In this document: in pieces, positions 10,663-56,080 of the stretch | Position numbering within the stretch: the first letter of the stretch is position 1 | Layout of the letters: each line of letters opens with the position of its first letter | Source: Hirudinaria manillensis | Lineage: Eukaryota; Annelida; Clitellata; Hirudinida; Hirudinidae | DNA: 64,000 bases | Assembly (NCBI GenBank): GCA_034509925.1 | Contig: CM067530.1 | Coordinates: 8,858,501-8,922,500 of the forward strand | Direction: 5' to 3' | The notes under the pieces: model-generated | Databases searched by the model: none | Told to the model about the DNA's origin: nothing | The model's input: only the letters and a program-made list of their open reading frames with translations | Position numbers and translations under genes: made by a program

Positions 10663-31838
<21,176 letters not shown>

Positions 31839-32440: not shown

Positions 32441-34052
32441 ATGGAGATGTCAAGTACTGGGGAACGCATTTATGCTGTTCAGAAACTTATCAATAAGAGA
32501 ATTAACAGAGTTTGTCTTTTTACGGCTTCTGCTTTAATATCTGCGTCAATTAACAATCAAAATGCGGTCTTAGCCAATACTTTTGTCTCGAAACAGTTAC
32601 ACATATGTACCTTTGTTATTATATACTTATTCGTGAAAAGTAACTTATATTCCAATGTAATGATTAAGGAAGTTGTGTAGAAATGTTGCAAGGTTGTATC
32701 AACCTTAAATTAAAGACGTTTGCTCAGACTAATTACAATTACTTGGGGTTGTTTTGCATTTTGCTTGCATATCTTTATTTGCAATTATATGAATTGTCTA
32801 ATTTATTTTGCATTACAAACAATTAAAATTTAATTTCAGGGTAGAGTTGAATATTTGGTGAGATGGAAGGGTTGGAGCAGCAAGTGAGGGCTCAGCAGTT
32901 GCACATTCTACATTCTTGAGCTTTAAAGTTTATTAAGTACAACCTGCTTCCTTGCTTTCAGATATAACACCTGGGAACCAGAGGCACACATCCTTGATGC
33001 AAGATTGCTACGTTCATTTGAGTTGAGGTTGAGCAGTTCAGAAATTTGTTAAATTTTAGTGATGACTTTCAAAAATAATTGTGTGTCAAGTTTTACAATT
33101 CAATTAGGTGTTTTATTGATTTAGTTGATTTAGCTGAATTCAATTAGGTGTTTTATTGATTTAGTTGATTTAGCTGAACATTTTAGTTTTTATTATTTTT
33201 AAGAAAAAGAAGAAGACTACAAAATCTCTCAGAAAGAAAGGTGACTGAAATATTAATATAGATAATTACCAGATAATTACAGAACTGCATAGTTATGACT
33301 CGTCTTCATTTTGCTAGGATTCAGATGCACAGAATAAAGATGGAGCAGAAGATGATGACCTGAGTTCTAGTGAATCAGATGAGGACTTTCAAGACCAGAG
33401 AGAATTGACTGAAAAAGAACAGGAAATTGCAAAAAAAGTACAAAAAGTCACAAGGAGTACAAGTGACATTGTTTCCCACGAAGCCTCGACCTCTCACACC
33501 TCACCCTCAAAGGCAAGTCCAAGCTCACATCTATCGTCGGCGGTCAACAGCGACTTGCACCAAGAACAACAAAAGACATCTGAGTCGAAGAAGAGCCAAG
33601 AATTTCAAATTAGAAGAGGTAGAGGACGCCCTCCAAAACAATTAACTCTCCAAAAATTTTCTTTGGGTGCCTACCGTTCAACCACGCCATCATCCACCAG
33701 TTCGAGTCTTCCAGACAAATCTTTGAAACGCAAGAGAGGAAGGCCATTAGGATCAAAGAACAAAAGCAAGGATGATGCAACACCCTTAACCACATCTTCA
33801 AAGGCACCTAAGGAAGCTTTTTCATTGAAAGCCGTGAACAAAGACAGCGAAGTTGTCGGAGATGGCGGTCATTTGTCTGTCGAGAACTCCGTATCAGATG
33901 CCATTTGGCGGATTCCCGAGAGCTCGAGGCATCTCTTGGACAAGGTCTGCATCACCGACGTGACTGCAAATTCTTGCACCATCACGATACGTGAAAGTTC
34001 ATGTCAAGATGGATTTTTCACATCCTCAGAAGTTGTTGTTGATAAAACGTGA
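32441..34052 (+). CDS. CBX: Polycomb-group chromobox protein (Pc/CBX2-like), 5 exons
   Basis: This is the chromatin reader of PRC1, which binds H3K27me3 and helps keep developmental genes silent. Exons are 32441-32509, 32840-32883, 32962-33027, 33204-33240 and 33318-34052. Junctions are GT-AG and in phase, giving 951 nt and 316 residues. The chromodomain (about residues 9-60) is split over exons 1-3: GERIYAVQKLINKRINR, GRVEYLVRWKGWSSK, YNTWEPEAHILDARLLRSF. The aromatic cage is Tyr11, Trp32 and Trp35. An acidic stretch follows (EDDDLSSSESDEDF). Two AT-hook cores (RGRGRPPK near residue 173; RKRGRPLGSKNK near 211) point to a CBX2-type paralogue. The C-terminal Pc box (CITDVTANSCTITIRES, then GFF) is the RING1-binding motif of Polycomb CBX proteins. 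The start Met is supported by the alignment of the first residues with CBX N-termini. Confidence 0.94.
33097..33176. repeat. 40-bp perfect tandem duplication in CBX intron 3
   Basis: The same 40-bp segment, beginning AATTCAATTAGGTG, occurs twice back to back at 33097-33136 and 33137-33176. It is intronic. Confidence 0.9.
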
Positions 34053-37417: not shown

Positions 37418-40400
37418 TCACTGATGAATTTTCTTTTCAACTTGGACATGGGATGTTTCGGATGCGGATTTAAAATCCGAAGAAATGCCTCCTTTTTCAA
37501 TTCTAATTTCTTTCGTTTCGGTAACCTGATGATGGGATGGCCCTTTGCTCTCAATGATCGTCTTGCTCGAGGAAAATGAATATGAAACTGACGGCATGTC
37601 GGCTTGTAGTCCACCGGACACAGCAGGAGATGAAAGAGAAACACCGGCTTCGGGGACACTACCAGCCACTTCGATTATGGAAGACTTCGGCTTGACTGAA
37701 AATCCCGAATCATCGTGGGTTATCGAAACAGCACTAACGTTGGGCTTTTCATGATAATCTGGGTGTTCTGGAGCTGAACCCTGTTCAAATTCTAAGCTAG
37801 GTGATTTAGAATCAGAAGTACTGAAAAAATCTTTGAGGCGCTGAATAAAACCTCTCCGCTTCCTCTTCTTTCCAGAGATACCAGTTTCATCAGCTGCCAA
37901 TTCGTGGTCACTTTCGGAAGCGCTGGCGCCTATTTCCATACTGCGAGGCCTGGCCTTAACCCTAAATTTACCTTTTCGTGAGGATGAATCAATTTCTCGA
38001 GGCAAACTTCCAACTTTAACGCCAGATGTATCCATGTTGACATTTAAATTGGGTTCAAATGACTGACTCTTTGAGGTGATTTTTGGAAAACCAGTTTGAT
38101 ATCTTCCGGAAACGTGAACAGGACTCGAACCTGAGACAGAAGCACCGCTGTGAGCAGCAGAGCCAGAAACATCAGCTCGAGCTTCAAGACCTGAAGCGGC
38201 AAGATTAAACTTCGGAAGCTCAATGGAATAATCCTTTCCAGAAAAATCTGCATCAATGCCATCAGATTTGGCGCGAGAAAAACCGCTGGATTTAACTCCT
38301 TTACCTTTACCACTAAACTTCGGAAATCCAATATGAAAACCCTTTGATTTTGATTTGGAAGACAAAGCAACATTATCGCTGTCGCTTTTCGGGAGAGCAA
38401 CACCAGCATCGATGTCTGCCGCACCACCCAAAGATTTATCTAAGTTACCCCGAGAATCAATGTGCAACTTTGGAAAACTCTTTGGGACATGAACATCGAC
38501 ATCAGCAGCACCAGAAACTTTAGCATCACCAGATGGAATGACATATTCAGTATCTCCAAGAGAAGTACCTTTTGCTTTCAAATTCACTTTAGGAAAACTC
38601 GGTAAATTCACATTAAAACCACTTTTACCTTTGTGAGCACCAACATTGACATCAATATTGCCAACGTCACTGCCTAAACCAAGGTCTCCCTTTGGCAAAT
38701 CAATTCCACCTTCAAACTTCGGACCTTTACCGCTTATATCGAACGAAGGCAAGTTGATGCCACCGGAACCTTTCGGACCCTTCAAGTTCACGTCTGCGTC
38801 GGGGAGGCTTGCATCCACGTCGAGTCCTGCTTCTGGAAGATTCACGTCAACGTCGCCCTTGACACCTTTTCCTTTAATGCCGAACTTTGGCATTCCTATG
38901 TGAAAACCACCTGATCCTTTAGGCGCCTTGATGTCTACGTCTGGAGCTTCGGCAGAAACGTTCAAATCTGCTTCCGGTAAATCGACGTCCACTCCGGCGT
39001 CTCCTTTCAGGCCTTTTCCTTTCAGGCTCACCTTTGGCAGACTAGGAAGACCGATATGGAAACCCCCTTTTCCTTTCGGTCCTTTCAGATCGATGTCGGC
39101 ATCAGGCAGCTCTCCTTTGATGTCGATGTCACCTTTAGGCAATTTCACATCGGCATTCACGTCAATGTCACCGCTCGGACCCTTGGCATCCAAGCCGAAC
39201 GAAGGCAATTCTATGTTAAATCCACCCTTTGGACCTTTCAGATTGACGTCGGCATCTGGAAGGCTCGCATCCACGTCAACTTCTCCTTTGGGAGCCTTGC
39301 CTTTCATTCCGAATTTGGGTAAACCGAAATGGAAACCTCCTTTACCCTTTGGAGCTTTCACGTCGATGTCGGCATCTGGAAGTTCTGCTTTCAGGTCGAT
39401 GTCTCCCTTTGGCAGTTTCACGTCTGCCTCCACACCACCTTCCACTTTCGGGCCTTTTCCGCTAATACCGAACGACGGCAATGATGGCAAGTTGATGTTG
39501 ATGCCACCGGAATCTTTCGGACCCTTCAAGTTCACGTCTGCGTCGGGAAGGCTTGCATCCACGTCGAGTCCTGCTTCCGGTAGATTCACGTCGACGTCGC
39601 CCTTGGCACCCTTGCCTTTGAACCCGAACTTTGGCATTCCGATGTGAAATCCTCCTTTACCCTTTGGAGCTTTCACGTCGATGTCGGCATCTGGAAGTTC
39701 TGCTTTCAAGTCGATGTCTCCCTTTGGCAGTTTCACGTCTGCGTCCAAACCACCTTCAACTTTCGGTCCTTTTCCGCTAATACCGAAAGACGGCAATGAT
39801 GGCAAGTTGATGTTGATGCCACCGGAACCTTTCGGACCCTTCACGTTCAGGTCTGCGTCGGGAAGGCTTGCATCCACGTCGAGTCCTGCTTCCGGAAGAT
39901 TGACGTCGACGTCGCCCTTGGCACCCTTGCCTTTGAACCCGAACTTTGGCATTCCGATGTGAAATCCTCCTTTACCCTTTGGAGCTTTCACGTCGATGTC
40001 GGCATCTGGAAGTTCTGCTTTCAAGTCGATGTCTCCCTTTGGCAGTTTCACGTCTGCGTCCAAACCACCTTCAACTTTCGGTCCTTTTCCGCTAATACCG
40101 AAAGACGGCAATGATGGCAAGTTGATGTTGATGCCACCGGAACCTTTCGGACCCTTCAAGTTCACGTCTGCGTCGGGGAGGCTTGCATCCACGTCGAGTC
40201 CTGCTTCTGGAAGATTCACGTCAACGTCGCCCTTGACACCTTTTCCTTTAATGCCGAACTTTGGCATTCCTATGTGAAAACCACCTGATCCTTTAGGCGC
40301 CTTGATGTCTACGTCTGGAGCTTCGGCAGAAACGTTCAAATCTGCTTCCGGTAAATCGACGTCCACTCCGGCGTCTCCTTTCAGGCCTTTTCCTTTCAGG

Positions 40401-43400
40401 CTCACCTTTGGCAGACTAGGAAGACCGATATGGAAACCCCCTTTTCCTTTCGGTCCTTTCAGATCGATGTCGGCATCAGGCAGCTCTCCTTTGATGTCGA
40501 TGTCACCTTTAGGCAATTTCACATCGGCATTCACGTCAATGTCACCGCTCGGACCCTTGGCATCCAAGCCGAACGAAGGCAATTCTATGTTAAATCCACC
40601 CTTTGGACCTTTCAGATTGACGTCGGCATCTGGAAGGCTCGCATCCACGTCAACTTCTCCTTTGGGAGCCTTGCCTTTCATTCCGAATTTGGGTAAACCG
40701 AAATGGAAACCTCCTTTACCCTTTGGAGCTTTCACGTCGATGTCGGCATCTGGAAGTTCTGCTTTCAGGTCGATGTCTCCCTTTGGCAGTTTCACGTCTG
40801 CCTCCACACCACCTTCCACTTTCGGGCCTTTTCCGCTAATACCGAACGACGGCAATGATGGCAAGTTGATGTTGATGCCACCGGAACCTTTCGGACCCTT
40901 CAAGTTCACGTCTGCGTCGGGAAGGCTTGCATCCACGTCGAGTCCTGCTTCCGGTAGATTCACGTCGACGTCGCCCTTGGCACCCTTGCCTTTGAACCCG
41001 AACTTTGGCATTCCGATGTGAAATCCTCCTTTACCCTTTGGAGCTTTCACGTCGATGTCGGCATCTGGAAGTTCTGCTTTCAAGTCGATGTCTCCCTTTG
41101 GCAGTTTCACGTCTGCGTCCAAACCACCTTCAACTTTCGGTCCTTTTCCGCTAATACCGAAAGACGGCAATGATGGCAAGTTGATGTTGATGCCACCGGA
41201 ACCTTTCGGACCCTTCACGTTCAGGTCTGCGTCGGGAAGGCTTGCATCCACGTCGAGTCCTGCTTCCGGAAGATTGACGTCGACGTCGCCCTTGGCACCC
41301 TTGCCTTTGAACCCGAACTTTGGCATTCCGATGTGAAATCCTCCTTTACCCTTTGGAGCTTTCACGTCGATGTCGGCATCTGGAAGTTCTGCTTTCAAGT
41401 CGATGTCTCCCTTTGGCAGTTTCACGTCTGCGTCCAAACCACCTTCAACTTTCGGTCCTTTTCCGCTAATACCGAAAGACGGCAATGATGGCAAGTTGAT
41501 GTTGATGCCACCGGAACCTTTCGGACCCTTCAAGTTCACGTCTGCGTCGGGGAGGCTTGCATCCACGTCGAGTCCTGCTTCTGGAAGATTCACGTCAACG
41601 TCGCCCTTGACACCTTTTCCTTTAATGCCGAACTTTGGCATTCCTATGTGAAAACCACCTGATCCTTTAGGCGCCTTGATGTCTACGTCTGGAGCTTCGG
41701 CAGAAACGTTCAAATCTGCTTCCGGTAAATCGACGTCCACTCCGGCGTCTCCTTTCAGGCCTTTTCCTTTCAGGCTCACCTTTGGCAGACTAGGAAGACC
41801 GATATGGAAACCCCCTTTTCCTTTCGGTCCTTTCAGATCGATGTCGGCATCAGGCAGCTCTCCTTTGATGTCGATGTCACCTTTAGGCAATTTCACATCG
41901 GCATTCACGTCAATGTCACCGCTCGGACCCTTGGCATCCAAGCCGAACGAAGGCAATTCTATGTTAAATCCACCCTTTGGACCTTTCAGATTGACGTCGG
42001 CATCTGGAAGGCTCGCATCCACGTCAACTTCTCCTTTGGGAGCCTTGCCTTTCATTCCGAATTTGGGTAAACCGAAATGGAAACCTCCTTTACCCTTTGG
42101 AGCTTTCACGTCGATGTCGGCATCTGGAAGTTCTGCTTTCAGGTCGATGTCTCCCTTTGGCAGTTTCACGTCTGCGTCCAAACCACCTTCCACCTTCGGT
42201 CCTTTTCCGCTAATACCGAACGACGGCAATGATGGCAAGTTGATGTTGATGCCACCGGAACCTTTCGGACCCTTCACGTTCACGTCTGCGTCGGGAAGGC
42301 TTGCATCCACGTCGAGTCCTGCTTCCGGAAGATTCACGTCGACGTCGCCCTTGGCACCCTTGCCTTTGAACCCGAACTTTGGCATTCCGATGTGAAATCC
42401 TCCTTTACCCTTTGGAGCTTTCACGTCGATGTCGGCTTCTGGAAGTTCTGCTTTCAGGTCGATGTCTCCCTTTGGCATTTTCACGTCTGCGTCCAAACCA
42501 CCTTCCACTTTCGGTCCTTTTCCGCTAATACCGAACGAAGGCAATGATGGCAAGTTGATGTTGATGCCACCGGAACCTTTCGGACCCTTCACGTTCACGT
42601 CTGCGTCGGGAAGGCTTGCATCCACGTCGAGTCCTGCTTCCGGAAGATTCACGTCGACGTCGCCCTTGGCACCCTTGCCTTTGAACCCGAATTTTGGCAT
42701 TCCGATGTGAAATCCTCCTTTACCCTTTGGAGCTTTCACGTCGATATCGGCATCAGGAAGTTCTGCTTTCAAGTCGATGTCTCCCTTTGGCAGTTTCACG
42801 TCTGCGTCCAAACCACCTTCCACTTTCGGTCCTTTTCCGCTAATACCGAACGACGGCAATGATGGCAAGTTGATGTTGATGCCACCGGAACCTTTCGGAC
42901 CCTTCACGTTCACGTCTGCGTCTGGGAGGCTTGCATCCACGTCGAGTCCTGCTTCTGGAAGATTCACGTCCACGTCGCCCTTGACACCTTTTCCTTTAAT
43001 GCCGAACTTTGGCATTCCTATGTGAAAACCACCTGATCCTTTAGGCGCCTTGATGTCTACGTCTGGAGCTTCGGCAGAAACGTTCAAATCTGCTTCCGGT
43101 AAATCGACGTCCACTCCGGCGTCTCCTTTCAGGCCTTTTCCTTTCAGGCTCACCTTTGGCAGACTAGGAAGACCGATATGGAAACCCCCTTTTCCTTTCG
43201 GTCCTTTCAGATCGATGTCGGCATCAGGCAGCTCTCCTTTGATGTCGATGTCACCTTTAGGCAATTTCACATCGGCATTCACGTCAATGTCACCGCTCGG
43301 ACCCTTGGCATCCAAGCCGAACGAAGGCAATTCTATGTTAAATCCACCCTTTGGACCTTTCAGATTGACGTCGGCATCTGGAAGGCTCGCATCTACGTCA

Positions 43401-46400
43401 ACTTCTCCTTTGGGAGCCTTGCCTTTCATTCCGAATTTGGGTAAACCGAAATGGAAACCTCCTTTACCCTTTGGAGCTTTCACGTCGATGTCGGCTTCTG
43501 GAAGTTCTGCTTTCAGGTCGATGTCTCCCTTTGGCAGTTTCACGTCTGCGTCCAAACCACCTTCCACTTTCGGTCCTTTTCCGCTAATACCGAATGACGG
43601 CAATGATGGCAAGTTGATGTTGATGCCACCGGAACCTTTCGGACCCTTCAAGTTCACGTCTGCGTCTGGGAGGCTTGCATCCACGTCGAGTCCTGCTTCT
43701 GGAAGATTCACGTCCACGTCGCCCTTGACACCTTTTCCTTTAATGCCGAACTTTGGCATTCCTATGTGAAAACCACCTGATCCTTTAGGCGCCTTGATGT
43801 CTACGTCTGGAGCTTCGGCAGAAACGTTCAAATCTGCTTCCGGTAAATCGACGTCCACTCCGGCGTCTCCTTTCAGGCCTTTTCCTTTCAGGCTCACCTT
43901 TGGCAGACTAGGAAGACCGATATGGAAACCCCCTTTTCCTTTCGGTCCTTTCAGATCGATGTCGGCATCAGGCAGCTCTCCTTTGATGTCGATGTCACCT
44001 TTAGGCAATTTCACATCGGCATTCACGTCAATGTCACCGCTCGGACCCTTGGCATCCAAGCCGAACGAAGGCAATTCTATGTTAAATCCACCCTTTGGAC
44101 CTTTCAGATTGACGTCGGCATCTGGAAGGCTCGCATCCACGTCAACTTCTCCTTTGGGAGCCTTGCCTTTCATTCCGAATTTGGGTAAACCGAAATGGAA
44201 ACCTCCTTTACCCTTTGGAGCTTTCACGTCGACGTCGGCATCTGGAAGTTCTGCTTTCAGGTCGATGTCTCCCTTTGGCAGTTTCACGTCTGCATCCACA
44301 CCACCTTCCACTTTCGGTCCTTTTCCGCTAATACCGAACGACGGCAATGATGGCAAGTTGATGTTGATGCCACCGGAACCTTTCGGACCCTTCAAGTTCA
44401 CGTCTGCGTCGGGAAGGCTTGCATCCACGTCGAGTCCTGCTTCCGGTAGATTCACGTCGACGTCGCCCTTGGCACCCTTGCCTTTGAACCCGAACTTTGG
44501 CATTCCGATGTGAAATCCTCCTTTACCCTTTGGAGCTTTCACGTCGATGTCGGCATCTGGAAGTTCTGCTTTCAAGTCGATGTCTCCCTTTGGCAGTTTC
44601 ACGTCTGCGTCCAAACCACCTTCAACTTTCGGTCCTTTTCCGCTAATACCGAAAGACGGCAATGATGGCAAGTTGATGTTGATGCCACCGGAACCTTTCG
44701 GACCCTTCAAGTTCACGTCTGCGTCGGGAGGCTTGCATCCACGTCGAGTCCTGCTTCTGGAAGATTCACGTCAACGTCGCCCTTGACACCTTTTCCTTTA
44801 ATGCCGAACTTTGGCATTCCTATGTGAAAACCACCTGATCCTTTAGGCGCCTTGATGTCTACGTCTGGAGCTTCGGCAGAAACGTTCAAATCTGCTTCCG
44901 GTAAATCGACGTCCACTCCGGCGTCTCCTTTCAGGCCTTTTCCTTTCAGGCTCACCTTTGGCAGACTAGGAAGACCGATATGGAAACCCCCTTTTCCTTT
45001 CGGTCCTTTCAGATCGATGTCGGCATCAGGCAGCTCTCCTTTGATGTCGATGTCACCTTTAGGCAATTTCACATCGGCATTCACGTCAATGTCACCGCTC
45101 GGACCCTTGGCATCCAAGCCGAACGAAGGCAATTCTATGTTAAATCCACCCTTTGGACCTTTCAGATTGACGTCGGCATCTGGAAGGCTCGCATCCACGT
45201 CAACTTCTCCTTTGGGAGCCTTGCCTTTCATTCCGAATTTGGGTAAACCGAAATGGAAACCTCCTTTACCCTTTGGAGCTTTCACGTCGACGTCGGCATC
45301 TGGAAGTTCTGCTTTCAGGTCGATGTCTCCCTTTGGCAGTTTCACGTCTGCATCCACACCACCTTCCACTTTCGGTCCTTTTCCGCTAATACCGAACGAC
45401 GGCAATGATGGCAAGTTGATGTTGATGCCACCGGAACCTTTCGGACCCTTCAAGTTCACGTCTGCGTCGGGAAGGCTTGCATCCACGTCGAGTCCTGCTT
45501 CCGGTAGATTCACGTCGACGTCGCCCTTGGCACCCTTGCCTTTGAACCCGAACTTTGGCATTCCGATGTGAAATCCTCCTTTACCCTTTGGAGCTTTCAC
45601 GTCGATGTCGGCATCTGGAAGTTCTGCTTTCAAGTCGATGTCTCCCTTTGGCAGTTTCACGTCTGCGTCCAAACCACCTTCAACTTTCGGTCCTTTTCCG
45701 CTAATACCGAAAGACGGCAATGATGGCAAGTTGATGTTGATGCCACCGGAACCTTTCGGACCCTTCAAGTTCACGTCTGCGTCGGGGAGGCTTGCATCCA
45801 CGTCGAGTCCTGCTTCTGGAAGATTCACGTCAACGTCGCCCTTGACACCTTTTCCTTTAATGCCGAACTTTGGCATTCCTATGTGAAAACCACCTGATCC
45901 TTTAGGCGCCTTGATGTCTACGTCTGGAGCTTCGGCAGAAACGTTCAAATCTGCTTCCGGTAAATCGACGTCCACTCCGGCGTCTCCTTTCAGGCCTTTT
46001 CCTTTCAGGCTCACCTTTGGCAGACTAGGAAGACCGATATGGAAACCCCCTTTTCCTTTCGGTCCTTTCAGATCGATGTCGGCATCAGGCAGCTCTCCTT
46101 TGATGTCGATGTCACCTTTAGGCAATTTCACATCGGCATTCACGTCAATGTCACCGCTCGGACCCTTGGCATCCAAGCCGAACGAAGGCAATTCTATGTT
46201 AAATCCACCCTTTGGACCTTTCAGATTGACGTCGGCATCTGGAAGGCTCGCATCCACGTCAACTTCTCCTTTGGGAGCCTTGCCTTTCATTCCGAATTTG
46301 GGTAAACCGAAATGGAAACCTCCTTTACCCTTTGGAGCTTTCACGTCGACGTCGGCATCTGGAAGTTCTGCTTTCAGGTCGATGTCTCCCTTTGGCAGTT

Positions 46401-49400
46401 TCACGTCTGCATCCACACCACCTTCCACTTTCGGTCCTTTTCCGCTAATACCGAACGACGGCAATGATGGCAAGTTGATGTTGATGCCACCGGAACCTTT
46501 CGGACCCTTCAAGTTCACGTCTGCGTCGGGAAGGCTTGCATCCACGTCGAGTCCTGCTTCCGGTAGATTCACGTCGACGTCGCCCTTGGCACCCTTGCCT
46601 TTGAACCCGAACTTTGGCATTCCGATGTGAAATCCTCCTTTACCCTTTGGAGCTTTCACGTCGATGTCGGCATCTGGAAGTTCTGCTTTCAAGTCGATGT
46701 CTCCCTTTGGCAGTTTCACGTCTGCGTCCAAACCACCTTCAACTTTCGGTCCTTTTCCGCTAATACCGAATGACGGCAATGATGGCAAGTTGATGTTGAT
46801 GCCACCGGAACCTTTCGGACCCTTCAAGTTCACGTCTGCGTCTGGGAGGCTTGCATCCACGTCGAGTCCTGCTTCTGGAAGATTCACGTCCACGTCGCCC
46901 TTGACACCTTTTCCTTTAATGCCGAACTTTGGCATTCCTATGTGAAAACCACCTGATCCTTTAGGCGCCTTGATGTCTACGTCTGGAGCTTCGGCAGAAA
47001 CGTTCAAATCTGCTTCCGGTAAATCGACGTCCACTCCGGCGTCTCCTTTCAGGCCTTTTCCTTTCAGGCTCACCTTTGGCAGACTAGGAAGACCGATATG
47101 GAAACCCCCTTTTCCTTTCGGTCCTTTCAGATCGATGTCGGCATCAGGCAGCTCTCCTTTGATGTCGATGTCACCTTTAGGCAATTTCACATCGGCATTC
47201 ACGTCAATGTCACCGCTCGGACCCTTGGCATCCAAGCCGAACGAAGGCAATTCTATGTTAAATCCACCCTTTGGACCTTTCAGATTGACGTCGGCATCTG
47301 GAAGGCTCGCATTCACGTCAACTTCTCCTTTGGGAGCCTTGCCTTTCATTCCGAATTTGGGTAAACCGAAATGGAAACCTCCTTTACCCTTTGGAGCTTT
47401 CACGTCGACGTCGGCATCTGGAAGTTCTGCTTTCAGGTCGATGTCTCCCTTTGGCAGTTTCACGTCTGCATCCACACCACCTTCCACTTTCGGTCCTTTT
47501 CCGCTAATACCGAACGACGGCAATGATGGCAAGTTGATGTTGATGCCACCGGAACCTTTCGGACCCTTCAAGTTCACGTCTGCGTCGGGAAGGCTTGCAT
47601 CCACGTCGAGTCCTGCTTCCGGTAGATTCACGTCGACGTCGCCCTTGGCACCCTTGCCTTTGAACCCGAACTTTGGCATTCCGATGTGAAATCCTCCTTT
47701 ACCCTTTGGAGCTTTCACGTCGATGTCGGCATCTGGAAGTTCTGCTTTCAAGTCGATGTCTCCCTTTGGCAGTTTCACGTCTGCGTCCAAACCACCTTCC
47801 AACTTTCGGTCCTTTTCCGCTAATACCGAAAGACGGCAATGATGGCAAGTTGATGTTGATGCCACCGGAACCTTTCGGACCCTTCAAGTTCACGTCTGCG
47901 TCGGGGAGGCTTGCATCCACGTCGAGTCCTGCTTCTGGAAGATTCACGTCAACGTCGCCCTTGACACCTTTTCCTTTAATGCCGAACTTTGGCATTCCTA
48001 TGTGAAAACCACCTGATCCTTTAGGCGCCTTGATGTCTACGTCTGGAGCTTCGGCAGAAACGTTCAAATCTGCTTCCGGTAAATCGACGTCCACTCCGGC
48101 GTCTCCTTTCAGGCCTTTTCCTTTCAGGCTCACCTTTGGCAGACTAGGAAGACCGATATGGAAACCCCCTTTTCCTTTCGGTCCTTTCAGATCGATGTCG
48201 GCATCAGGCAGCTCTCCTTTGATGTCGATGTCACCTTTAGGCAATTTCACATCGGCATTCACGTCAATGTCACCGCTCGGACCCTTGGCATCCAAGCCGA
48301 ACGAAGGCAATTCTATGTTAAATCCACCCTTTGGACCTTTCAGATTGACGTCGGCATCTGGAAGGCTCGCATCCACGTCAACTTCTCCTTTGGGAGCCTT
48401 GCCTTTCATTCCGAATTTGGGTAAACCGAAATGGAAACCTCCTTTACCCTTTGGAGCTTTCACGTCGATGTCGGCATCTGGAAGTTCTGCTTTCAGGTCG
48501 ATGTCTCCCTTTGGCAGTTTCACGTCTGCATCCACACCACCTTCCACTTTCGGTCCTTTTCCGCTAATACCGAACGACGGCAATGATGGCAAGTTGATGT
48601 TGATGCCACCGGAACCTTTCGGACCCTTCAAGTTCACGTCTGCGTCGGGAAGGCTTGCATCCACGTCGAGTCCTGCTTCCGGTAGATTCACGTCGACGTC
48701 GCCCTTGGCACCCTTGCCTTTGAACCCGAACTTTGGCATTCCGATGTGAAATCCTCCTTTACCCTTTGGAGCTTTCACGTCGATGTCGGCATCTGGAAGT
48801 TCTGCTTTCAAGTCGATGTCTCCCTTTGGCAGTTTCACGTCTGCGTCCAAACCACCTTCAACTTTCGGTCCTTTTCCGCTAATACCGAAAGACGGCAATG
48901 ATGGCAAGTTGATGTTGATGCCACCGGAACCTTTCGGACCCTTCAAGTTCACGTCTGCGTCGGGGAGGCTTGCATCCACGTCGAGTCCTGCTTCTGGAAG
49001 ATTCACGTCAACGTCGCCCTTGACACCTTTTCCTTTAATGCCGAACTTTGGCATTCCTATGTGAAAACCACCTGATCCTTTAGGCGCCTTGATGTCTACG
49101 TCTGGAGCTTCGGCAGAAACGTTCAAATCTGCTTCCGGTAAATCGACGTCCACTCCGGCGTCTCCTTTCAGGCCTTTTCCTTTCAGGCTCACCTTTGGCA
49201 GACTAGGAAGACCGATATGGAAACCCCCTTTTCCTTTCGGTCCTTTCAGATCGATGTCGGCATCAGGCAGCTCTCCTTTGATGTCGATGTCACCTTTAGG
49301 CAATTTCACATCGGCATTCACGTCAATGTCACCGCTCGGACCCTTGGCATCCAAGCCGAACGAAGGCAATTCTATGTTAAATCCACCCTTTGGACCTTTC

Positions 49401-52400
49401 AGATTGACGTCGGCATCTGGAAGGCTCGCATCCACGTCAACTTCTCCTTTGGGAGCCTTGCCTTTCATTCCGAATTTGGGTAAACCGAAATGGAAACCTC
49501 CTTTACCCTTTGGAGCTTTCACGTCGATGTCGGCATCTGGAAGTTCTGCTTTCAGGTCGATGTCTCCCTTTGGCAGTTTCACGTCTGCATCCACACCACC
49601 TTCCACTTTCGGTCCTTTTCCGCTAATACCGAACGACGGCAATGATGGTAAGTTGATGTTGATGCCACCGGAACCTTTCGGACCCTTCAAGTTCACGTCT
49701 GCGTCGGGAAGGCTTGCATCCACGTCGAGTCCTGCTTCCGGTAGATTCACGTCGACGTCGCCCTTGGCACCCTTGCCTTTGAACCCGAACTTTGGCATTC
49801 CGATGTGAAATCCTCCTTTACCCTTTGGAGCTTTCACGTCGATGTCGGCATCTGGAAGTTCTGCTTTCAAGTCGATGTCTCCCTTTGGCAGTTTCACGTC
49901 TGCGTCCAAACCACCTTCAACTTTCGGTCCTTTTCCGCTAATACCGAAAGACGGCAATGATGGCAAGTTGATGTTGATGCCACCGGAACCTTTCGGACCC
50001 TTCAAGTTCACGTCTGCGTCGGGAGGCTTGCATCCACGTCGAGTCCTGCTTCTGGAAGATTCACGTCAACGTCGCCCTTGACACCTTTTCCTTTAATGCC
50101 GAACTTTGGCATTCCTATGTGAAAACCACCTGATCCTTTAGGCGCCTTGATGTCTACGTCTGGAGCTTCGGCAGAAACGTTCAAATCTGCTTCCGGTAAA
50201 TCGACGTCCACTCCGGCGTCTCCTTTCAGGCCTTTTCCTTTCAGGCTCACCTTTGGCAGACTAGGAAGACCGATATGGAAACCCCCTTTTCCTTTCGGTC
50301 CTTTCAGATCGATGTCGGCATCAGGCAGCTCTCCTTTGATGTCGATGTCACCTTTAGGCAATTTCACATCGGCATTCACGTCAATGTCACCGCTCGGACC
50401 CTTGGCATCCAAGCCGAACGAAGGCAATTCTATGTTAAATCCACCCTTTGGACCTTTCAGATTGACGTCGGCATCTGGAAGGCTCGCATCCACGTCAACT
50501 TCTCCTTTGGGAGCCTTGCCTTTCATTCCGAATTTGGGTAAACCGAAATGGAAACCTCCTTTACCCTTTGGAGCTTTCACGTCGACGTCGGCATCTGGAA
50601 GTTCTGCTTTCAGGTCGATGTCTCCCTTTGGCAGTTTCACGTCTGCATCCACACCACCTTCCACTTTCGGTCCTTTTCCGCTAATACCGAACGACGGCAA
50701 TGATGGCAAGTTGATGTTGATGCCACCGGAACCTTTCGGACCCTTCAAGTTCACGTCTGCGTCGGGAAGGCTTGCATCCACGTCGAGTCCTGCTTCCGGT
50801 AGATTCACGTCGACGTCGCCCTTGGCACCCTTGCCTTTGAACCCGAACTTTGGCATTCCGATGTGAAATCCTCCTTTACCCTTTGGAGCTTTCACGTCGA
50901 TGTCGGCATCTGGAAGTTCTGCTTTCAAGTCGATGTCTCCCTTTGGCAGTTTCACGTCTGCGTCCAAACCACCTTCAACTTTCGGTCCTTTTCCGCTAAT
51001 ACCGAAAGACGGCAATGATGGCAAGTTGATGTTGATGCCACCGGAACCTTTCGGACCCTTCAAGTTCACGTCTGCGTCGGGGAGGCTTGCATCCACGTCG
51101 AGTCCTGCTTCTGGAAGATTCACGTCAACGTCGCCCTTGACACCTTTTCCTTTAATGCCGAACTTTGGCATTCCTATGTGAAAACCACCTGATCCTTTAG
51201 GCGCCTTGATGTCTACGTCTGGAGCTTCGGCAGAAACGTTCAAATCTGCTTCCGGTAAATCGACGTCCACTCCGGCGTCTCCTTTCAGGCCTTTTCCTTT
51301 CAGGCTCACCTTTGGCAGACTAGGAAGACCGATATGGAAACCCCCTTTTCCTTTCGGTCCTTTCAGATCGATGTCGGCATCAGGCAGCTCTCCTTTGATG
51401 TCGATGTCACCTTTAGGCAATTTCACATCGGCATTCACGTCAATGTCACCGCTCGGACCCTTGGCATCCAAGCCGAACGAAGGCAATTCTATGTTAAATC
51501 CACCCTTTGGACCTTTCAGATTGACGTCGGCATCTGGAAGGCTCGCATCCACGTCAACTTCTCCTTTGGGAGCCTTGCCTTTCATTCCGAATTTGGGTAA
51601 ACCGAAATGGAAACCTCCTTTACCCTTTGGAGCTTTCACGTCGACGTCGGCATCTGGAAGTTCTGCTTTCAGGTCGATGTCTCCCTTTGGCAGTTTCACG
51701 TCTGCATCCACACCACCTTCCACTTTCGGTCCTTTTCCGCTAATACCGAACGACGGCAATGATGGCAAGTTGATGTTGATGCCACCGGAACCTTTCGGAC
51801 CCTTCACGTTCACGTCTGCGTCGGGAAGGCTTGCATCCACGTCGAGTCCTGCTTCCGGAAGATTCACGTCGACGTCGCCCTTGGCACCCTTGCCTTTGAA
51901 CCCGAACTTTGGCATTCCGATGTGAAATCCTCCTTTACCCTTTGGAGCTTTCACGTCGATGTCGGCTTCTGGAAGTTCTGCTTTCAGGTCGATGTCTCCC
52001 TTTGGCATTTTCACGTCTGCGTCCAAACCACCTTCCACTTTCGGTCCTTTTCCGCTAATACCGAAAGACGGCAATGATGGCAAGTTGATGTTGATGCCAC
52101 CGGAACCTTTCGGACCCTTCAAGTTCACGTCTGCGTCGGGGAGGCTTGCATCCACGTCGAGTCCTGCTTCTGGAAGATTCACGTCAACGTCGCCCTTGAC
52201 ACCTTTTCCTTTAATGCCGAACTTTGGCATTCCTATGTGAAAACCACCTGATCCTTTAGGCGCCTTGATGTCTACGTCTGGAGCTTCGGCAGAAACGTTC
52301 AAATCTGCTTCCGGTAAATCGACGTCCACTCCGGCGTCTCCTTTCAGGCCTTTTCCTTTCAGGCTCACCTTTGGCAGACTAGGAAGACCGATATGGAAAC

Positions 52401-55400
52401 CCCCTTTTCCTTTCGGTCCTTTCAGATCGATGTCGGCATCAGGCAGCTCTCCTTTGATGTCGATGTCACCTTTAGGCAATTTCACATCGGCATTCACGTC
52501 AATGTCACCGCTCGGACCCTTGGCATCCAAGCCGAACGAAGGCAATTCTATGTTAAATCCACCCTTTGGACCTTTCAGATTGACGTCGGCATCTGGAAGG
52601 CTCGCATTCACGTCAACTTCTCCTTTGGGAGCCTTGCCTTTCATTCCGAATTTGGGTAAACCGAAATGGAAACCTCCTTTACCCTTTGGAGCTTTCACGT
52701 CGATGTCGGCATCTGGAAGTTCTGCTTTCAGGTCGATGTCTCCCTTTGGCAGTTTCACGTCTGCATCCACACCACCTTCCACTTTCGGTCCTTTTCCGCT
52801 AATACCGAACGACGGCAATGATGGCAAGTTGATGTTGATGCCACCGGAACCTTTCGGACCCTTCAAGTTCACGTCTGCGTCGGGAAGGCTTGCATCCACG
52901 TCGAGTCCTGCTTCCGGAAGATTCACGTCGACGTCGCCCTTGGCACCCTTGCCTTTGAACCCGAACTTTGGCATTCCGATGTGAAATCCTCCTTTACCCT
53001 TTGGAGCTTTCAAGTCGATGTCGGCATCTGGAAGTTCTGCTTTCAGGTCGATGTCTCCCTTTGGCAGTTTCACGTCTGAGTCCAAACCACCTTCCACTTT
53101 CGGCCCTTTTCCGCTAATACCGAACGACGGCAATGATGGCAAGTTGATGTTGATGCCACCGGAACCTTTCGGACCCTTCACGTTCACGTCTGCGTCTGGG
53201 AGGCTTGCATCCACGTCGAGTCCTGCTTCTGGAAGATTCACGTCCACGTCGCCCTTGACACCTTTTCCTTTAATGCCGAACTTTGGCATTCCTATGTGAA
53301 AACCACCTGATCCTTTAGGCGCCTTGATGTCTACGTCTGGAGCTTCGGCAGAAACGTTCAAATCTGCTTCCGGTAAATCGACGTCCACTCCGGCGTCTCC
53401 TTTCAGGCCTTTTCCTTTCAGGCTCACCTTTGGCAGACTAGGAAGACCGATATGGAAACCCCCTTTTCCTTTCGGTCCTTTCAGATCGATGTCGGCATCA
53501 GGCAGCTCTCCTTTGATGTCGATGTCACCTTTAGGCAATTTCACATCGGCATTCACGTCAATGTCACCGCTCGGACCCTTGGCATCCAAGCCGAACGAAG
53601 GCAATTCTATGTTAAATCCACCCTTTGGACCTTTCAGATTGACGTCGGCATCTGGAAGGCTCGCATCCACGTCAACTTCTCCTTTGGGAGCCTTGCCTTT
53701 CATTCCGAATTTGGGTAAACCGAAATGGAAACCTCCTTTACCCTTTGGAGCTTTCACGTCGATGTCGGCATCTGGAAGTTCTGCTTTCAGGTCGATGTCT
53801 CCCTTTGGCAGTTTCACGTCTGCATCCACACCACCTTCCACTTTCGGTCCTTTTCCGCTAATACCGAACGACGGCAATGATGGCAAGTTGATGTTGATGC
53901 CACCGGAACCTTTCGGACCCTTCAAGTTCACGTCTGCGTCGGGAAGGCTTGCATCCACGTCGAGTCCTGCTTCCGGTAGATTCACGTCGACGTCGCCCTT
54001 GGCACCCTTGCCTTTGAACCCGAACTTTGGCATTCCGATGTGAAATCCTCCTTTACCCTTTGGAGCTTTCACGTCGATGTCGGCATCAGGAAGTTCTGCT
54101 TTCAAGTCGATGTCTCCCTTTGGTGCGTCCACACCACCTTCCAACTGAGGCCTTTCGCCACTTATACCGAAAGATGGTAAATTAATGTTGATGCCACCCG
54201 AACCTTTTTGACCTTTGATGTTTAAGTCGGGTAGGCTTTTATCGACGTTTAGATCTGCTTCTGGGAGATTAACTTCAACTTCGCCCTTTGTTCCTTCTCC
54301 TTTGAACCCGAACTTTGGCATTCCGATTTGGAAGCCTCCTTTACTCTTCGGTGCTTTTAAGTCAAGCTTGGCATCTGGATGTTGTGCGTTCATGTCAATG
54401 CTTCCTTGTGGTAGTTTCCCGTCCACTCCACCTTCTACCTTCGGCAGTTTTCCACTTATTCCGAAAGATGGTAAATTGATATTTATGCCACCAGAACCTT
54501 TCGGACCCTTCAAGTTCACGTCTGCGTCGGGAAGGCTTGCATCGACGTCGTGACCTGCTTTCGGAAGATTCACGTCAATGTCGCCCTTGACACCTTCTCC
54601 TTTAATGCCGAACTTTGGCATTCCTATGTGGAAACCATGTGATCCTTTAGGTGCCTTGATGTCCACGTCTGGGGCTTCGGCCGAAATCTTGAAATCTGCT
54701 TCTGGTAAATCGACGTCGACTCCCGCGTCTCCTTTGAGGCCTTTTCCATCCAGGCTCATCTTTGGCAGGTTTGGAAGACCAATTTGGATCCCTCCTTTTC
54801 CCTCTGGTCCTTTGACTTTGATGTCGCCTGATGGAATTTTTGATGTAATACCAACATCGGATTTTGATTTGTTTATTTCTATGTTGACATCTTCGACTTT
54901 GGCTGTTTCATGACCTATTCCAAATGAAGGTAAGTTAATATTTATACCCCCTGACTTTGGTGACTTGAGATGACTGTTTTCATCACGCAGTGTTGTGTCA
55001 ATTGTTACATTTGATTGCTTTGCTTCGAGACCAACATCTGCTTTAACTTTTCCTTTATCTCCAAATTTTGGAAGTTTTATCAGATATCCCTTTGGTTTTG
55101 GATCGTGGATAGATGCTTCTTGAATTGTTCTTGGGAATGTTATGCTACCAGTTGGTGATTGCACGTCGATGTCTAATGTTTTGGTATCTGATTTGTGCTC
55201 AAATCTCTTTATTTTGATTTCATCATCAGGAAGAGCAACATCTATACCAGCACCACCTTTTGCTTTTCTTCCTCTTAGTTCAAACTTTGTCTGATCTATC
55301 TTTGGGCCCTTGATTTCAATTCCTGAATCGATCATGCTAAACTGTTCGTTTAGCCCAATGTCTCCCGTGGCACTTGCATTTAAACTTTCATCATGTGAAG

Positions 55401-56080
55401 CTTTTTTAACTGAAATTTTGACTGGATATGGTGATAGAACCTTCAATAAGCTCTGTGCTTCCTCAAGGCTCAATGTGTTCATGTCAATTGTTATGCCTGT
55501 CAACTGATCACCTGAAACATGAATTTTAATTTCACAAGTTTTAAATTTGAAATTGCAAATTAGTTTTACTATATCCATTCAATCGATGCAATGTTTACTC
55601 CACAATACACCTTCTCCTCTCAAACTAAAAGGCATGCATACCACTTCATTTTACTTTTGATGTACTAATTAATAATAATTGAAATAAAATTAATACGTAT
55701 ATATATATAATAATTTATACCGGTTTCAATTTTTCCGGATGCTTCTGCTACGCTATGAGGCTCCACCTCCTTGACATAAAACCCATGCTGGGCATTGCCT
55801 TCCACATTAATGCCAATGTTCTCATTTCCATGGGTTTTTATGCTTACTGCATCGGAATGCTGCATAAACAATGACCATTTATGAATTTTATGACATTTTT
55901 AATGAGATTCTAAGGGACAATAACAATAAAGGCAAAAGGTAAATGCTATAAATAAATAAAACAACAAATATCCAAATACTTCATCAATACAAAGATCTTT
56001 AAAACTATTAGATTAAAATGGTTGAAAATAATAACCTGTACAGATGGAACCTTAACTTCAATTGATGCACTCGACTGCAT
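37418..56080 (-). CDS. AHNAK-like: Giant AHNAK/periaxin-like PDZ scaffold protein, 3 exons, about 6,092 residues, frame broken by three 1-bp indels
   Basis: Exons: 56080-56036 (MQSSASIEVKVPSVQ), 55859-55721 and one giant exon 55511-37418. Exons 2-3 make a PDZ domain (about residues 16-98): IGINVEGN as the carboxylate-loop strand, GFYVKEVEPHSVAEASGKIETGDQL, then SLEEAQSLLK. Residues after it are degenerate repeats, then a near-identical array of beta-strand-like repeats rich in DxDxxxPK, KGPKG and FGFKGKG, as in vertebrate AHNAK. The C-terminal tail is unique and Ser-rich, with a basic cluster KKRKRRGFIQRLKDFF near 37.8 kb, and ends VEKKIHQ. The open frame changes at about 50.02, 47.80 and 44.73 kb. 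Discounting these, the coding length is 18,279 nt, an exact multiple of three. Vertebrate AHNAK (about 5,890 residues) links membrane, actin and S100A10/annexin A2; a scaffold role here is inferred. The large exon after a split PDZ domain matches the AHNAK/periaxin gene plan. Confidence 0.9.
44720..44735 (-). other. One-base deletion (G4 to G3) breaking the AHNAK-like frame
   Basis: On the plus strand the site reads GCGTCGGGAGGCTTGC. Sister copies with the same flanks read GCGTCGGGGAGGCTTGC. The loss of one G shifts the minus-strand frame. Confidence 0.9.
47790..47805 (-). other. One-base insertion (C to CC) breaking the AHNAK-like frame
   Basis: On the plus strand the site reads CACCTTCCAACTTTCGG. 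Sister copies read CACCTTCAACTTTCGG. The extra C restores the frame lost at about 50.02 kb for the downstream part. Confidence 0.9.
50015..50030 (-). other. Second copy of the same one-base deletion (G4 to G3) in the AHNAK-like frame
   Basis: The sequence is identical to the site at 44.73 kb and lies exactly 5,295 bp (five 1,059-bp units) from it. Confidence 0.9.
54121..55110 (-). repeat. Older, diverged AHNAK-like repeats at the N-terminal edge of the array
   Basis: The same module types are recognisable here (for example ISAEAPDVDIKAPKGSHGFH near 54.66 kb) but with many substitutions and small in-frame gaps. The equivalent point at 54656 is 1,332 bp from its neighbour, that is 1,374 minus 42 bp. 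This looks like an ancestral edge left out of the recent homogenisation. Confidence 0.8.

Follow-up and report, generated by a model that had tools for sequence, protein, structure and literature searches.

Within a 64,000-nucleotide window of the leech Hirudinaria manillensis genome (assembly GCA_034509925.1, contig CM067530.1, positions 8,858,501–8,922,500; coordinates below are those of the window), the minus strand at 37418–56080 carries an AHNAK-like giant scaffold gene. With a probability of roughly 0.78, we read it as a gene of the AHNAK/periaxin kind that encodes a flexible PDZ scaffold, in which the repeat array has grown by unequal exchange and the breaks in the reading frame are likely assembly errors. 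The modular coding array itself is real: two of its 1,059-base units, S3 and S8, are identical throughout, so that chance does not account for it.

The sequence suggests a gene of three exons. Exon 1 (56036–56080) comprises the start codon (ATG at 56080) and 15 residues, and ends in phase 0 at the putative donor GTTATTAT. Exon 2 (55721–55859), encoding the first part of the PDZ domain, lies between an acceptor ...TTTATGCAG and a donor GTATAAAT. Exon 3 (37418–55511) would encode the remainder of the PDZ domain, a linker, the repeat array and the tail, and ends with the stop codon at 37418. All of these borders are of the GT/AG type with compatible phases, which would give a continuous frame from the PDZ domain into the array. 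The intron that splits the PDZ domain is in phase 1 and falls within the Gly of the GDQ motif. The 99 spliced residues match the Pfam PDZ family PF00595 with an expect value (E) of 8.2e-10, scoring 39.4 bits where the cut-off is 23.2. The plan put forward in a first-pass annotation of this DNA, a PDZ domain spread over small exons and followed by a giant repeat exon, is thus upheld by the borders, the phases and the Pfam match. The terminal exon, with 18,094 nt and 14 copies of one repeat block, indeed appears to be a giant exon of tandem coding repeats, its frame being broken three times by single bases as assembled. The same annotation had described the tail as basic and Ser-rich. Translation of the tail (37421–38764) gives a Ser content of 17% and a KKRKRR cluster, in keeping with the second term, but the net charge of +5 over 448 residues makes it only weakly basic. 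A Pfam scan of the tail matched no family.

Tandem-repeat decomposition, one of the checks that the first-pass annotation had proposed, yielded period-315 arrays within 39.3–54.6 kb (Tandem Repeats Finder). A search for array landmarks in all three minus-strand frames resolved these into 14 C-blocks, 13 complete I-modules and a set of 16 F-modules, of which one precedes the first C-block; a 14th I-module, at 38896, merges into the diverged tail. Each C-block is followed by a 315-nt I-module and then by zero, one or two extra 315-nt F-modules before the next C-block. Accordingly, the 13 units between successive C-blocks fall into nine with one F-module, one without and three with two. Diverged repeat copies at the N-terminal edge (53740–54951), delimited by landmarks and protein identity, end in the single F-module at 54036; those at 54624 and 54324 also bear an I or F landmark. 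Superunits S1–S9 (C-block, I-module and one F-module; 44210–53739) come next and belong to the 1,059-base class, S4 and S9 measuring 1,058 and S6 1,060 bases. They are followed by S10 (C-block and I-module; 43466–44209; 744 bases), S11–S13 (C-block, I-module and two F-modules; 39344–43465; 1,374 bases each) and the 14th and last C-block (38897–39343; 447 nt by landmarks).

Of the 13 spacings between C-blocks, six are 1,059 bases, three are 1,374 and one is 744, while two are 1,058 and one is 1,060. The rule of 744 + 315n bp, which the first-pass annotation had proposed, is exact in 10 of the 13 spacings; the other three are one base off. What it had taken for a 744-bp core is better divided into a C-block of 429 nt (744 − 315 by subtraction; 447 nt as cut at the landmarks) and an I-module that is related to the optional F-module. 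The I- and F-modules differ at 12–19 of 297 positions (10 of the 13 I copies, the three frame-broken ones being dropped). At the protein level, 105-residue modules and 143-residue C-blocks follow each other in the order C-I-F and build higher blocks of 248 to 458 residues, and the 14 C-block copies encode two distinct proteins. Within the module, the two halves are alike (z = 18.0 against 400 shuffles), and there is also a likeness between the C-block and the module (z = 26.8 against shuffles). Given these resemblances, a single ancestral element some 50 residues long seems to have given rise to the whole array.

The PDZ domain bears on the family placement. A search of the PDB with the leech domain returned periaxin (4cmz) as the best of 128 matches at E up to 1 (E = 7e-7), followed by LNX (8.5e-6) and AHNAK2 (4cn0; 1.1e-5). 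BLAST aligned it without gaps over 68 residues to both periaxin (34% identity) and AHNAK2 (29%). Moreover, the leech, periaxin and AHNAK2 domains all lack one residue in the loop that follows GDQ, a deletion absent from all 11 other rows of a 14-row comparison. The rows were of our own choice and covered periaxin and AHNAK2, the PDZ domain of AHNAK itself being left out, as was the whirlin-type domain 1uez, the alignment of which is short and gapped near the deletion. In our own reading of these rows, the deletion would be diagnostic for PDZ domains of the AHNAK/periaxin type.

A number of results weigh against this placement. LNX is nearly as close to the spliced leech domain as periaxin is (45.1 versus 46.2 bits). 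In searches of the leech genome, in which best candidates only were scored, the periaxin and AHNAK2 PDZ queries listed four and six places, respectively; none lies in the AHNAK-like gene, and a gene on another contig (C13) ranked first. The intron that splits the PDZ domain handicaps the AHNAK-like gene in such searches. Once spliced, its domain scores the same as that of the C13 gene with AHNAK2 (42.0 bits each), and 46.2 versus 34.3 bits with periaxin. A first tree placed another leech PDZ domain inside the periaxin/AHNAK2 group at a support of 54/55; a second run joined the leech domain with periaxin and AHNAK2 alone (68/31.9), accompanied by long-branch warnings. In addition, a grouping of the leech domain with LNX survives the approximately unbiased test (p-AU = 0.274). 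The AHNAK/PRX assignment of the first-pass annotation is thus favored by the best PDB match and the shared deletion, whereas the trees are weak and the reverse searches favor the C13 gene. We rejected the latter as a paralogue, since its 1,382-residue frame looks by eye like that of an ankyrin-type PDZ protein lacking an array of this kind.

For the repeat, searches of Pfam and the PDB found no credible relative. Pfam did match the array to the FlgA N-terminal family (E = 2e-10, over its cut-off), but no single stretch passes, and the match was put down to composition; those of the module in the PDB, at E of 0.04–0.34, were taken as chance, and two NCBIfam matches lie far below their cut-offs. 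Compared with an AHNAK repeat, the leech repeat gives a z of 13.3 against 400 letter shuffles, and with a periaxin stretch a z of 6.6; both partner sequences were provisional, so these values serve as leads only, and the dependence of the AHNAK comparison on a provisional sequence counts against the family placement. The array could be a lineage-specific one joined to an ordinary PDZ domain, convergent with AHNAK and periaxin and not homologous to them. The weak trees with their tolerated LNX grouping, the near tie between LNX and periaxin, the preference of the reverse searches for another leech PDZ domain and the lack of a credible Pfam or PDB relative for the repeat would all suit such an origin. 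We nevertheless consider it unlikely, given the deletion and a PYxV segment that the leech domain has in common with periaxin and AHNAK2 among the 14 rows, the overall gene plan that it shares with AHNAK and periaxin, and the lead from the provisional AHNAK repeat. The leech gene is thus a probable member of the AHNAK/periaxin kind, as judged from its sequence.

As assembled, the giant exon is not one open frame, since three C-block spacings are off by one base. The single intact frame assumed in the first-pass annotation gives way to four stop-to-stop minus-strand frames of at least 150 residues (55578–50008, 50065–47699, 47883–44713 and 44770–37418), separated by three one-base breaks. From an alignment of the 14 I-module regions, we placed these by our own arithmetic near 50023 (break 1; loss of one base, in the simplest case from CCCC to CCC), 47800 (break 2; one extra G, in one of the 14 regions) and 44728 (break 3; one base missing at a module site identical to that of break 1). 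At the site of breaks 1 and 3, CCCC stands in eight of the 12 unbroken regions and CCCA in four, and nearby variants group the two broken regions with the CCCC copies. Translation from exon 1 would stop after 1,895 residues in the sequence as it stands. The net effect of the three breaks is the loss of one base, which leaves the tail out of frame with the PDZ domain.

For this assembly, the available part of its published description gives a Merqury quality value of 33.5 after Illumina polishing of contigs from high-fidelity (HiFi) reads (PMC10671345). Such a value corresponds to an error rate near 4.5 per 10,000 bases, with some eight expected in 18,094 bases, which is a genome average and no proof at these sites. 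Against this expectation, three one-base indels are unremarkable, and, judging by the reported quality, the breaks most probably arose during assembly. Were they real, the gene might be a truncated allele ending after 1,895 residues, a gene in decay or one in which ribosomes change frame. Breaks 1 and 3 are the identical change at the identical module site, with 5,295 bases or five 1,059-base units between them. S6 and S9 each depart from S3 and S8 by their one indel and nothing else, so that the breaks might be genuine mutations, one of which has spread by exchange. Yet we regard real breaks as quite unlikely: the last frame is open for 2,450 codons across array and tail, differences among copies pooled over the whole array are biased to silent ones, and the assembly had been polished to the quality given above. 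In repeats of this kind, the mapping of short reads is generally poor. Assembly errors are thus preferred, and single-base errors of this kind can cut short automatic gene models of such arrays.

The inner copies of the array are nearly uniform. Beyond the pairs already described, S12 and S13 are identical but for one of their 1,374 bases, S1 differs from S2–S9 by 10–12 substitutions, and S11 differs from S12 and S13 by 23–24. Protein identity to the module is 97%–100% in 16 core F-type matches, 74% and 82% in the two edge stretches nearest the core and 38%–51% further out; at the DNA level, two edge copies show 71–119 ungapped differences in 240 positions, values that are inflated by gaps. 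Likeness inside and unlikeness at the edges is what unequal exchange or conversion should leave behind. The growth at two nested scales that the first-pass annotation had suggested, by unequal exchange, fits this pattern, and the array illustrates clearly how coding sequence can enlarge at two such levels. That the number of copies is an artefact of collapse or expansion during assembly, as units 100% identical over 1,059 bases might suggest, is very unlikely, given a mean HiFi read length of 18.73 kb in the accessible part of the assembly report (PMC10671345) against an array of about 15 kb, the distinguishing substitutions of several copies and a unit order stepped in the number of F-modules (one, then none, then two).

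The ratio of nonsynonymous to synonymous differences per site (pN/pS) is 0.12 for the I-modules (10 of 13 copies, the three frame-broken ones dropped) and 0.28 for the F-modules (all 16 copies), from which the protein sequence seems to have been under selection while the copies turned over. The value of 0.56 for the C-blocks (all 14 copies) runs the other way, but comes from two variable sites only. In searches of the leech genome that scored best candidates only, all 66 module matches and all 79 tail matches among those listed fall in the AHNAK-like gene, and the array turned up nowhere else among them. The PDZ query recovered the two PDZ-encoding exons of the gene and four weak matches elsewhere (E = 0.001–0.5).

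Across exon 3 (37418–55511; 12 stretches measured), the guanine-plus-cytosine (GC) content of third codon positions forms a dome over the array. It rises from 0.27 at the N-terminal edge through 0.36–0.44 in the edge copies to 0.57 in the first F stretch, stays at 0.50–0.52 in the superunits (three of 13 measured: S1, S5 and S11), and falls to 0.43–0.46 at the far edge and 0.27–0.37 in the tail. GC-biased conversion would explain this dome, and a GC-rich founder unit would do so equally.

Given a terminal PDZ domain with dozens of similar elements behind it, a dimerizing flexible scaffold is the simplest mechanism that we can propose. The small N-terminal PDZ domain encoded by exons 1–3 probably homodimerizes, by analogy with those of periaxin and AHNAK2. 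The giant last exon would supply a long, probably disordered strand of about 50-residue elements, repeated in pairs (105 residues) and in the higher blocks described above. The most likely role of such a protein is that of a flexible scaffold or tether, presumably beneath membranes, and its repeats are predicted to offer many equivalent weak binding sites. The number of modules would set protein length, which may vary in the steps of 105 or 248 residues that the first-pass annotation had suggested, and hence reach and the number of binding sites; it probably grew by unequal exchange at the 315-bp and roughly 1-kb scales, with continued exchange or conversion keeping the copies uniform. AlphaFold2 gave no fold for a 353-residue superunit (predicted local distance difference test score of 27.6, from an alignment of eight window rows). 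This prediction is compatible with disorder; the low confidence may equally stem from so shallow an alignment, which tells against reading it as such.

If correct, the combination of this PDZ deletion with a giant exon and AHNAK-like repeats in a leech protein would extend the family beyond vertebrates, and such a member would allow the basic scaffold role to be studied apart from myelin. Tentatively, and with somewhat less than even confidence, we propose that the PDZ scaffold of the AHNAK/periaxin kind is older than the divergence between protostomes and deuterostomes, and hence older than vertebrate myelin, and that each lineage regrew its giant array by exchange, GC-biased conversion leaving the GC dome.

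Elsewhere in the window, a full-length Rfam match to Vault RNA lies at 98–195 on the plus strand (46.7 bits); the genome holds at least 14 such matches over the cut-off, on contigs C2, C5 and C9, among the best 49 of 8,230 candidates. The CaMKII association domain PF08332 (E = 1.2e-9) is matched on the minus strand at 11658–12023. A second minus-strand stretch at 17797–18159 holds a putatively kinase-like peptide and had no Pfam match at 0.01. The CBX family C-terminal motif PF17218 (E = 1.5e-11) is matched at 33318–34049 on the plus strand, and a very long AAT microsatellite of about 267 copies at 98% matches occupies 14661–15461. Outside the window, all 4,341 bases of a stretch near 3026446 of nuclear contig C9 match the mitochondrial contig at 99.7%, crossing its origin, and represent either a nuclear copy of recent origin or a join made in assembly. 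The mitochondrial genes, which we named from their translations, lie on one strand as cox1, cox2, cox3, nad6, cob, a masked stretch, nad1, nad3 and nad2, presumably the annelid order. At reference positions of COX1, AGA/AGG would stand for Ser, AAA for Lys and ATA for Met, which we take to fit the invertebrate mitochondrial code; the length of the frame left several codes equally open. The genome also contains hirudin-family matches above the cut-off, which together with the codon usage and the gene order tell against an origin from a tunicate.

The leech gene can be compared with three vertebrate systems, as described in the available parts of the papers cited. Similar to the leech gene, vertebrate AHNAK combines an N-terminal PDZ domain, a giant repeat exon and a C-terminal region. 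However, its repeat unit measures about 128 residues and recurs over 4,392 residues (PMC10682155), in contrast to the 105-residue modules and 143-residue blocks of the leech array in C-I-F order. AHNAK2 shares with the leech gene the one-residue PDZ deletion and a single large repeat exon, which in its case spans about 17,559 bp and holds 24 repeats, each 165 residues long (PMC10682155), and differs in the length and order of the repeats and in a PDZ identity of no more than the 29% given above. In periaxin, as in the leech gene, a PDZ domain is followed by a long tail; the periaxin domain dimerizes in an intertwined fashion, and disorder is predicted for the periaxin tail (PMC7072810). That tail is described as five regions of composition, with no long uniform array mentioned in the accessible sections (PMC7072810), and the strongly basic region after the periaxin PDZ domain has no leech counterpart, the 231 residues C-terminal of the leech domain carrying a net charge of −1. 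An S100A10/annexin A2 binding motif is given as a trait of the AHNAK/periaxin family (PMC7072810). A literature search, for which subscription papers were mostly outside coverage, listed no paper on invertebrate AHNAK evolution among its matches. With its PDZ domain, giant repeat exon and tail, the leech gene does have the AHNAK-type plan that the first-pass annotation had recognized in an invertebrate. Such a gene is less surprising than that annotation implied, since AHNAK is already named, in the portions available, as a neuronal marker in an earthworm single-cell study (PMC7253469) and among the mucus proteins of octopus (PMC10138644).

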